Source: an uncultured Chlorobiaceae bacterium (GTDB taxonomy: Bacteria; Bacteroidota; Chlorobiia; Chlorobiales; Chlorobiaceae). Taken from it: a DNA stretch of 64,000 bases. The stretch spans positions 1 through 64,000 of the forward strand of contig CAIMPI010000046.1 of assembly GCA_903843305.1 (NCBI GenBank), read 5' to 3'. The notes below the pieces were generated by a model that was not told the DNA's origin, did no database searches, and saw only the letters and a list, made by a program, of their open reading frames with translations. The first letter of the stretch is position 1, and every line of letters starts with the position of its first letter. Of this stretch, positions 28,161 through 30,347 are shown in pieces. The position numbers and the translations under genes are program-made.

Positions 28161-29513
28161 ATGGGAGGACAACATGCTGCCTTTATGCTGGCCGCCCCAT
28201 CAAGTGGTTCCGGAAAAACAACCATAACTCTCGCACTCTTGAGGATGTTTGCCCAGCGGGGGCTGGCGGTTCAGCCGTTCAAGTGCGGGCCGGATTATCT
28301 CGATACTCGCTTGCACACCATGGCGGCCTCGTTTGGCGGGCGCGAGGGGGTCGGGATCAATCTTGATACTTTTATGGCCTCAAAGGAGCATGTTCAGGGG
28401 CTGTTCAGCCGCTACTCATCGGGTGCTGATGTCGCTGTGGTTGAGGGTGTTATGGGGCTTTTTGACGGGGCTGAAAAATCGCAAGGGAGCAGCGCTGAAA
28501 TTGCCATGCTGCTTGGTATTCCCGTTATCATGGTCATCAACGCTCAAAGCATGGCCTATTCGGCGGCGCCGATGCTCTATGGTTTTCGGACGTTTGATCC
28601 CGCGCTGAACCTTACAGGGGTGATTTTCAACCAGGTCAATACCTCTTCTCATTACAGCTACCTTGAAGCTGCAGCTCGTGATTCCGGAGTTGAACCGCTG
28701 GGCTATGTTCCCCGCAGTGAAGCGGTGGCGATCAGTGAGCGTCATCTTGGTCTTGACACCTCTGCCGCGTATGACCGGGAGGGAGTAATTGCCGCCATGG
28801 CAGAGCATGTTGGTAAAACTGTGAATGTTGACCGATTGCTGGAGATTGCGCAGGTGGAGAGATCTTGCACTCCTGTTCTTCCGCCGTCAATGGTAAAGGG
28901 TAATAAAGTCATTGCCGTGGCCCGTGACGAGGCGTTCAACTTTGTCTATCGCGAAAATATTGATGTGCTGGGCGAATATGGTCGCTTGTTGTTTTTCAGT
29001 CCACTGCATGATGAACGTTTGCCTGAAGCAGACATGCTTTACCTTGCGGGAGGCTACCCTGAACTCTATGCGGAACAGCTCTCTGCCAACAGCTTCATGC
29101 GTGAGCAGATCGCAGCTTATAGCCGCAATGGCGGGCGTGTCTATGCCGAGTGTGGCGGCATGATGTACCTTGGGAAAACAATAACGCTCAAGGATGGTTC
29201 GGTGTATCCCATGTGCGGTGCGCTTGATCTGGAGACAACCATGCAGGAGTCCAGACTGATTCTCGGTTACAGGAAAGTTGTTTTGAATGGTTCTTCACAA
29301 GAGCTTCGAGGCCATGAATTTCACTATTCACGCGTCAGCTATCAGGGAGAATTGCTGAACATTGCAGCGGTAAAAAACGCCCGAGGCGAAAATATGACAA
29401 CACCCCTTTTAAAAATAAACAACACGACAGCCTCATACATTCATCTTTACTGGGGCGAAATGCGTCAGGTACCCGCAATGCTTTTTTCGCTTGAGAACTG
29501 CATAACGCACTGA
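28161..29513 (+). CDS. cobB: Cobyrinate a,c-diamide synthase
   Basis: Amidates cobyrinate at the a and c side chains in corrin synthesis (called CbiA in the anaerobic pathway, CobB in the aerobic one). The 450-residue protein has a P-loop APSSGSGKTTITLAL, the PFKCGPDYLDTRLH segment, VEGVMGLFDGAE, and a C-terminal glutamine-amidotransferase-like domain with the catalytic Cys in YAECGGMMYLG and a late His in GHEFHYS. Green sulfur bacteria make cobalamin for bacteriochlorophyll synthesis and other enzymes; the remaining cob/cbi genes are not in this window. Confidence 0.94.
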   Translation: MGGQHAAFMLAAPSSGSGKTTITLALLRMFAQRGLAVQPFKCGPDYLDTRLHTMAASFGGREGVGINLDTFMASKEHVQGLFSRYSSGADVAVVEGVMGLFDGAEKSQGSSAEIAMLLGIPVIMVINAQSMAYSAAPMLYGFRTFDPALNLTGVIFNQVNTSSHYSYLEAAARDSGVEPLGYVPRSEAVAISERHLGLDTSAAYDREGVIAAMAEHVGKTVNVDRLLEIAQVERSCTPVLPPSMVKGNKVIAVARDEAFNFVYRENIDVLGEYGRLLFFSPLHDERLPEADMLYLAGGYPELYAEQLSANSFMREQIAAYSRNGGRVYAECGGMMYLGKTITLKDGSVYPMCGALDLETTMQESRLILGYRKVVLNGSSQELRGHEFHYSRVSYQGELLNIAAVKNARGENMTTPLLKINNTTASYIHLYWGEMRQVPAMLFSLENCITH

Positions 29514-29556
29514 TGACTTTTGTTGTAGCTTTCGGAGTGTCACATCGATATGCGTA

Positions 29557-29691
29557 GGTCGCCGAGGAGCACCTCGATACGGGCTTCGCCCTACTCGGTG
29601 TCCAGCAGTGGCGTATCTTGCGGTTGAACCATTTGGCAGAGTATACTGATCGGTCGCCGAGTAGCACGAAGTGCGTATCGAGGCACTACTC
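29557..29691. repeat. REPIN-like pair of inverted short repeats
   Basis: Two copies of a 29-base motif lie head to head, about 50 bases apart. Copy 1 (29557-29603, read on the minus strand) is CCGAGTAG-GGCGAAGCC-CGTATCGAGG; copy 2 (29656-29683, plus strand) is CCGAGTAG-CACGAAGTG-CGTATCGAGG. The flanks are identical and only the stem differs, by paired compensatory changes (GGC/GCC against CAC/GTG) around a GAA loop. GTAG stands immediately before each hairpin, as in REP elements mobilised by RAYT transposases. GGTCGCCGAG precedes both copies. Copy 2 runs to the stop codon of the next gene. Confidence 0.7.
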
Positions 29692-30160
29692 ACAACATAA
29701 ACTCCAAATCATACCCCTCAGTTACCGACTCTTCGACAAACACACCGAGTTTCGCAAGAAAAACAAGAAACCTTGCCGGATCAATGTCACGAAAGTATGC
29801 TACCCCAATCGGCTGATCCTGCCAGCCGAGCAGAATGGTTTCATGATGTTCTGGATCAATGGATGCCATGCGTTCAACAATAATCTTTTTCATGCGTCCA
29901 AGGTTGCTGTTATGTAGAAAAGCTTCATCCCAACTGTCAAGTCCGTTGTTGCTTTCCGAGATGAATGGCAGGTTGTTCAAGAGCTCAGGTATGCCGTAAT
30001 GAAAAAACGCAGCATAATTGTGGGCATCGATCTCCAGAGAGCTGTACGGTTTGTACGATGTATCCTGAAGTCGTACCCGATATATGGTGCCTGTACGGTA
30101 TATTGAAAGCTCGCGGTGTACGGGGCTGGTGTCATCAATAAGGATGTGTTGAACATTCAT
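29690..30160 (-). CDS. Hypothetical protein, no recognised family
   Basis: A 156-residue acidic soluble protein (MNVQHILIDDTSPVHREL). No signal peptide, membrane segment or catalytic motif stands out; the C-terminal half has hydrophobic segments (RFLVFLAKLGVFVEE) typical of a folded alpha/beta protein. The stop codon lies at the end of the REPIN repeat. It is divergent from clpC. The frame is fully open and in a normal gene position, so I regard it as real. Confidence 0.65.
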   Translation of the reverse strand: MNVQHILIDDTSPVHRELSIYRTGTIYRVRLQDTSYKPYSSLEIDAHNYAAFFHYGIPELLNNLPFISESNNGLDSWDEAFLHNSNLGRMKKIIVERMASIDPEHHETILLGWQDQPIGVAYFRDIDPARFLVFLAKLGVFVEESVTEGYDLEFML

Positions 30161-30347
30161 GGCTGAGTCAGAGAAAAAGAGAACCTTTAATCGATAGAGA
30201 GAGTTGTATGTTTTTATGGAATTGCTTTTAACATAGCTATCTTTAAGAAATTATTTTTTGAGTTCATTTTTGCTTGGACATATCGGTATATGATCAAACT
30301 GGGCACTCAATACAATATTCACAACAATTTTATCGACAAATAAAAGA

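Follow-up and report, generated by a model that had tools for sequence, protein, structure and literature searches.

In our reading, the repeat at positions 29557 to 29691 of the window, the whole stretch of 64,000 nucleotides analysed here from an uncultured Chlorobiaceae bacterium, is a REPIN-like dimer whose cognate protein is probably a free-standing GIY-YIG nuclease of about 97 amino acids and not a RAYT. The repeat, scattered through the genome of this green sulfur bacterium, resembles a large class of bacterial palindromes, and since repeats of this sort often flank a small GIY-YIG gene on both sides, we regard the nuclease as the most promising candidate for spreading them.

The inverted pair and its two-helix unit

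Two copies of a single palindromic unit stand in inverted orientation in the window, and their stems differ in sequence while both remain paired. The features of the site are the following:

28161..29513, plus strand: upstream neighbour ORF of 450 aa, convergent with the next gene and presumably resembling cobyrinate a,c-diamide synthase
29557..29566, plus strand: 10-base fragment of a third copy, GGTCGCCGAG, with tag, outer arm and GAG, equal to the start of a copy
29566..29603, minus strand: element copy 1, GGACACC-GAGTAG-GGC-GAA-GCC-CGTATCGA-GGTGCTCC, inner stem GGC/GCC, outer stem of 4 bp, strict core at 29574-29596
29604..29650, no strand: spacer inside the inverted pair, faced by the 5' tags of both copies (GGAC, GGTC)
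29651..29688, plus strand: element copy 2, CGGTCGCC-GAGTAG-CAC-GAA-GTG-CGTATCGA-GGCAC, inner stem CAC/GTG, outer stem of 3 bp, core at 29659-29681
29690..30160, minus strand: downstream ORF of 156 aa, convergent, ending beside the element pair

Read as motifs, the minus copy is CCGAGTAG-GGC-GAA-GCC-CGTATCGAGG and the plus copy CCGAGTAG-CAC-GAA-GTG-CGTATCGAGG. A preliminary description had seen here a REPIN-like element of two inverted 29-base motifs with identical flanks, differing only at paired stem positions. The identical flanks stand, CCGAGTAG and CGTATCGAGG being the same in both copies, but the shared block comprises 27 bases in all and not 29; the four bases that differ form two pairs of the three-pair inner stem, just as described. 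The strict core pattern, GAGTAGN{5,25}CGTATCGA, was matched twice in the window as against 0.00 expected from 100 dinucleotide shuffles, and 32 times in the window's genome (G000, 2.59 Mb) as against once for the reversed control. Many of these 32 copies form inverted pairs, and the genome-wide count proposed at the outset thus shows a motif that is not limited to the window and that deserves the name REPIN-like.

Compared across copies, the unit is composed of a 5' tag CGG(T/A)C, an outer stem that is variable but paired and an inner hairpin that is variable but mostly paired, whereas GAGTAG on one side and CGTATCGA on the other are conserved and remain unpaired or bulged. The fetched loci yielded 119 different elements, each unique over its 30-nt flanks; of their 39 different inner segments, 27 have arms of at least three Watson-Crick pairs. 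For lengths represented by at least two inner segments, the arms were paired in this way in 26 of 37, whereas 1000 half re-pairings averaged 8.3 and never exceeded 16. Covariation was measured on those copies, 87 different ones, whose inner segment has 9 bases: seven pairs, four outer and three inner, were standard in 579 of 609 cells, while registers slid by 1 or 2 gave 147-294. Six of the seven pairs have cells changed on both sides, the seventh (16-20) being nearly invariant. Pairing is therefore kept while the letters change, as had been suggested from the two window copies, and the alternative offered at the same time, that of related stem subfamilies, also holds, the window displaying both GGC/GCC and CAC/GTG. 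A consensus based on sequence only was rejected for all families, as inner and outer arms vary provided that they pair.

Two positions beyond the outer stem are G in 86 of the 87 copies each, whatever base stands opposite, and so look like the 5' tag CGG(T/A)C and not like stem; the composition of the tag in these copies is C 70, G 86, G 86, T 63 or A 21, and C 80. The case for structure rests on this covariation across copies and not on energy, because the two window hairpins, folded singly as ssDNA, are weak (z -0.40 and -1.20).

Folded together as ssDNA, the inverted pair is strong (z -3.78), which, along with its position between convergent ORFs, would suit a bidirectional terminator or an mRNA-stabilising hairpin, kept for that function and mobile only incidentally. 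We give this explanation very little credit: apart from the weakness of the single hairpins, no Rfam family rose above threshold at 29000-30300, the bracketing of GIY-YIG genes described below would be left unexplained, and relatives have no copy, one copy or two at the site. Among 12 sequences alignable across the site, G000 and G228 carry the pair, G228 together with a further, longer fragment to its left; G229, G028 and G013 carry one copy, decayed in G028; the site is empty in G235, G010 and G026, and the alignment across it revealed no recognisable copy in G018, G031, G023 and G006. The units are multicopy and polymorphic between relatives. As the single copy of G229 and G013 has a GGC/GCC stem and the same site in G000 and G228 has CAC/GTG, the stem has changed with its pairing kept, be it by mutation or by replacement.

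A small GIY-YIG gene beside the motif

In relatives, dense motif clusters surround an ORF of 96-99 aa with a GIY-YIG domain (PF01541, E 2.7e-17) at residues 1-73, the sole domain recognised in the protein of about 97 aa. From this domain and its conserved residues, the bracketed gene is predicted to encode a GIY-YIG nuclease: Y15, G17, R25 and H29 are conserved in 139 of 139 aligned proteins and E62 in 138 of 139, all five being residues that we take to be catalytic. The structure model (pLDDT 88.6) found its best Foldseek match in the UPF0213 protein 1zg2 (E 9.1e-6), followed by 1ywl, another small GIY-YIG protein (E 0.008), and by the branched-DNA nuclease Slx1 (Slx1-Slx4 entries, E 0.08-0.33), and weakly matched the I-TevI entry 1ln0 (E 0.87). 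The protein thus has its fold in common with UPF0213 (1zg2, 1ywl) and with Slx1, which works with Slx4; the structure entries of these proteins name no repeat association, whereas the bracketed protein has one. GIY-YIG homing endonucleases such as I-TevI possess a catalytic domain of the same kind, but the I-TevI type has one homing site, while the bracketed protein of about 97 aa consists of the GIY-YIG domain only and goes with dispersed palindromes. A UPF0213/Slx1-like fold would suit a protein that recognises the folded form of an element in which only the loop has a fixed sequence.

Nine intact GIY-YIG genes of subfamily A were tested within the genus Chlorobium (G003, G013, G018, G028 twice, G031, G229, G235 and G226), and all nine have the strict motif on both sides, with gaps of 9-75 bp; several of these loci are related by descent, so that the nine are not independent events. 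Over 33 genus genomes compared, subfamily-A genes or fragments occur in six of the 11 with at least five motifs, G023 being counted from fragments, versus none of the 22 with at most one (Fisher 4e-4, a value that overstates certainty because the loci share ancestry). None of the weak or partial matches in G019, G001, G032, G027:C8, G035:C61 and G035:C40, each of which was inspected, is subfamily A. The small GIY-YIG genes of G015, G027, G008, G035 and G025, genomes with at most one motif, belong to other subfamilies and lie amid GTCA-type repeats; those other-subfamily genus proteins that were aligned are 29-39% identical to the G003 protein. Several Chlorobium genomes also have a BRO-N domain gene between motif clusters beside the GIY-YIG gene (L091 2918-3823, L093 1084-2043 and L338 486-1155), part of which remains in G000.

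No small GIY-YIG match was obtained in G000, G006, G014 and G029, which hold 6 to 32 motifs, and a protein search of G000 for a GIY-YIG gene at E<=10, run without a positive control, returned nothing. The relatives' GIY-YIG neighbourhood is partly kept in G000, on C29 (part of the BRO-N gene and one motif copy) and on C49 (a cobO-like gene). As the nuclease gene is absent from this remnant neighbourhood on both contigs, the window copies are probably orphans, with some doubt left by the gaps in an assembly of 55 contigs.

The preliminary description had likened the GTAG before each hairpin to that of REPs handled by RAYT transposases and had pointed to a RAYT gene flanked by the motif; neither expectation was confirmed. 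According to Di Nocera et al. (PMC3733652), RAYT REPs carry GTAG as a terminal unpaired tag, whereas the GTAG of the window element is internal, between the outer and the inner stem, since the outer stem covaries in the 87 copies. The window's genome has three matches to the RAYT model, all below the model's own cut-off, two of which exceed that of Y1_Tnp. Following a family search in 17 genomes, motif scans of 30 RAYT-like loci from 11 genomes revealed the strict motif at none of the 30, 14 of which say little, as only 16 come from genomes with at least five motifs; the GAG/CGA element described below stood at none of 26 usable loci. As controls for the 14-mer test, also described below, RAYT loci served as positives and gave only 4 of 26, and uvrC of the genus offered only two usable loci, so that neither control carries weight. 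RAYT was rejected as the partner on the strength of the 30 empty loci and the internal GTAG.

Two RAYT-like genes of G000 have palindromes of their own upstream, of the GGGAACGCCGAGCTCCAGCTCGGC type and the GTAGAGACAACGCATGCGTTGTCTCTAC type, the same palindrome also being present within each coding sequence (L031 1129-1854, G000:C41; L082 1435-2016, G000:C20). One might still regard the window elements as orphan RAYT REPs, spread by another kind of RAYT or by a lost one, in line with the three RAYT-like genes of the genome and with GTAG within each strict copy. We consider this very unlikely in view of the RAYT-like loci devoid of both the strict motif and the GAG/CGA element, of the internal GTAG, and of the other palindromes upstream of and inside two of the genome's RAYT-like genes. 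What the window family has in common with RAYT REPs and REPINs (TnpA-REP) is that repetitive palindromes in inverted pairs bracket a nuclease gene; there it is a HUH/Y1 transposase with a terminal GTAG, while here it is a GIY-YIG gene with an internal GTAG.

Repeats at GIY-YIG genes of other lineages

Subfamily-A relatives beyond the genus were taken as the best 80 among the matches listed in a contig scan with five subfamily-A proteins (set 1), with 64-100% identity to the query and hosts among Chlorobiaceae (4), Bacteroidota, Calditrichia, Melainabacteria, Kuenenia, Deltaproteobacteria, Spirochaetia, Leptospiraceae, Acidobacteria and others. Using no motif definition, the 14-mer test asks whether the two 400-nt flanks of a gene share a 14-mer; it was positive across the gene in 38 of 69 usable loci from these best 80, versus 7 of 359 shifted windows of the same loci. 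The main repeat architecture, judged by eye, is arm - (T/C)GAG - inner hairpin - CGA(A/G) - arm'. A GAG/CGA element of this kind (arms of at least six) occurred within 350 nt at 59 of 74 set-1 loci from the best 80, four of the 74 being Chlorobiaceae, versus 21 of 526 control windows, a result that is partly circular because the pattern was defined after seeing set 1; 15 of the 74 loci fail this test. Four other trinucleotide pairs put in place of GAG/CGA were found at 0-2 of the 74. Elements are densest close to the genes, numbering 131 in 154 bins at 0-200 nt, 34 in 149 at 200-400 nt and 8 in 148 at 400-600 nt.

For 39 chosen loci of the 80, 38 whole genomes were searched for the strict core, which was present in 10. 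Six of these have at least three copies, with reversed controls of 0, or 1 in one of the six. Per genome, named here by its locus, the copies number 20 in L137 (Bacteroidia), 20 in L163 (Leptospiraceae), 17 in L209 (Chryseobacterium), six each in L138 (Calditrichia) and L193 (Ignavibacteriales), and three in L171 (Spirochaetia). The strict-core list of those genomes displays arms of at least three Watson-Crick pairs in 39 of 58 distinct inner segments, or 43 counting G-T. Outside the Chlorobiaceae, the window-type motif lies beside the fetched GIY-YIG gene in three loci only, L137, L138 and L171. It was not seen beside the fetched gene in L163, L193 and L209, from genomes with 6-20 strict copies; different GAG/CGA repeats flank the gene in L193 and L209, and the L163 locus ends at a contig edge.

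Other subfamilies were sampled with 39 small GIY-YIG genes from 39 Bacteroidota genomes (set 2), hand-picked roughly by score (40 fetched, one without an ORF dropped). The 14-mer test was positive in 27 of 39 versus 5 of 234 shifted windows, a count also raised by at least three loci (L215, L220 and L235) that are tandem gene copies. A third set, 20 small GIY-YIG genes from the phylum of a Desulfobacterales genome, gave 8 of 20 versus 1 of 20 uvrC genes, themselves also GIY-YIG, of the same 20 genomes, and versus 0 of 133 shifted windows; the test was failed by 12 of 39 loci in set 2 and by 12 of 20 in the third set. As a universal signature, GAG/CGA was rejected for these subfamilies, with 6 of 40 versus 7 of 316 in set 2 and 1 of 20 versus 3 of 131 in the third set. 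GTCA-tagged palindromes, a pattern drawn after seeing the set-2 flanks, fit set 2 better, occurring at 12 of 39 versus 16 of 312 with six-base arms and at 22 of 39 versus 53 of 312 with five. They are modestly enriched in the third set (5 of 20 versus 8 of 131 with six-base arms, 8 of 20 versus 20 of 131 with five; its uvrC genes 1 of 20 and 4 of 20, respectively), and set 1 revealed no enrichment (2 of 74 versus 23 of 526).

In a plasmid collection, where a search with the subfamily-A protein returned four distant matches, we inspected 14 records, 12 of the 33 matches in one search and two of the four in another. GTCA-tagged palindromes flank the GIY-YIG gene on both sides in 10 of the 14, including Sinorhizobium meliloti, Azospirillum lipoferum 4B and Neisseria gonorrhoeae, and on one side in a Photobacterium record, with one doubtful palindrome in Methylobacterium; none was found near the gene in the Sphingomonas and Sinorhizobium K101 records, the ORF of K101 being oddly long. 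Over the 14 records, the roughly 9.8 kb that extend up to 350 nt from the genes contain 39 such palindromes, and the other 97 kb contain 51.

Some of these genes have unusual settings. The GTCA-bracketed gene of Azospirillum lipoferum 4B AZO_p3 (L326 3983-4276) lies within the suf cluster, between sufB and sufC, and that of Planktothrix agardhii p1 (L331 4001-4285), with GTCA repeats on both sides, has neighbours annotated as MmeI-like restriction-modification and DISARM DrmA. Tandem arrays of three small GIY-YIG genes, spaced by 317-420 bp, were seen at G163:C1:1733881-1734727, G115:C2:234372-235265 and G106:C86:45033-46092, and 7 of 148 genomes searched have 15 to 25 PF01541 matches.

GIY-YIG being a known homing-endonuclease domain, the gene might be a passenger or a homing-type gene, inserted or tolerated in REP clusters, with another agent spreading the repeats. 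Among the matches listed, subfamily-A proteins 64-83% identical to the query occur in many phyla outside the Chlorobiaceae, so that the genes evidently move, and some repeat-rich genomes have no GIY-YIG gene. We nevertheless judge this reading rather unlikely, as the gene is bracketed by full-length copies and does not split one copy. Moreover, one GTCA-type strict repeat is present in G105 in 21 copies, of which two bracket a GIY-YIG gene, and in G125 in just two copies genome-wide, both adjoining its GIY-YIG gene. Repeat class also tracks protein clade, with 2 changes for 80 labelled rows versus a shuffled mean of 18.9, a difference inflated by similarity-based sampling, on a tree that was built quickly from 102 columns and has 66 of its 136 branches open. 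Less telling are the 24 rows not collected by similarity (21 GTCA, 3 GAG/CGA), with 2 changes versus a shuffled mean of 2.95, as low in 9 of 200. With 59 unlabelled rows as a third state there were 27 changes versus a shuffled mean of 58.9.

CGTC REPs and a proposed mobile unit

The superfamily of CGTC-tagged REPs was defined by Di Nocera et al. in 2013 (PMC3733652), whose text counts Neisseria dRS3 and Rickettsia RPE-4/RPE-6 in it and lists S. meliloti and A. lipoferum among the hosts and Chlorobi among the host phyla. Its members are described there as having a 5' unpaired tag CGTC (or TGTC/CCTC), a stem of 8-9 bp starting with AT pairs, a loop of 4-5 and a short tail, and as forming dimers that are mostly HH, tags outside (PMC3733652). 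The window family resembles them in its short tagged palindromes, compensatory stem subfamilies, inverted dimers and Chlorobi hosts, but differs in its tag (CGG(T/A)C, not CGTC), in its long internal loop and in possessing a second inner hairpin; most of its pairs in G000, moreover, face their tags inward. Failing the CGTC tag test as well as the stem test, having two helices with an internal loop, it is a relative by architecture and partner, not a member.

The same survey stated that CGTC repeats come without associated transposase genes (PMC3733652). The GTCA palindromes at the GIY-YIG genes of S. meliloti, A. lipoferum and N. gonorrhoeae are presumably that paper's CGTC repeats, and the lack of a transposase-type gene does not hold for GTCA palindromes that bracket a GIY-YIG gene in 10 of 14 records; as GIY-YIG is not a known transposase, this link is one of association only. 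A search of titles and abstract beginnings in a PMC library returned no paper joining GIY-YIG with REPs.

Association of the nuclease with the repeats does not prove that it moves them. In the mechanism that we propose, the nuclease would recognise the two helices and their conserved loop when the DNA is extruded or single-stranded, and would nick or cut near the tag, after which repair or strand transfer would copy the unit to new sites; the gene would either travel along, making an autonomous REP-nuclease-REP unit, or stay behind. The window's genome would have lost its GIY-YIG gene and retained orphan copies. A broader form would include GTCA-tagged palindromes with other GIY-YIG subfamilies, and the same pairing would cover CGTC REPs. 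We are inclined to believe, with some reserve, that small GIY-YIG nucleases act as the transposases for repetitive palindromes of a very large class, one that spans phyla and includes CGTC REPs of the Neisseria and rhizobial types, and that REP-GIY-YIG-REP represents a new class of bacterial mobile element whose DNA recognition relies on a fold of two stems and a conserved internal loop.

Having no transposase gene beside CGTC REPs to point to, the 2013 survey closes by asking what mobilises them (PMC3733652). The pairing of GIY-YIG genes with repeats names a candidate enzyme, matches repeat to protein and makes the question of mobilisation testable with a 97-aa protein and a 40-base DNA. If true, it would assign a function to a family that is common but carries no annotation beyond 'GIY-YIG nuclease family protein', and it would explain palindromes that keep their pairing while their letters change.
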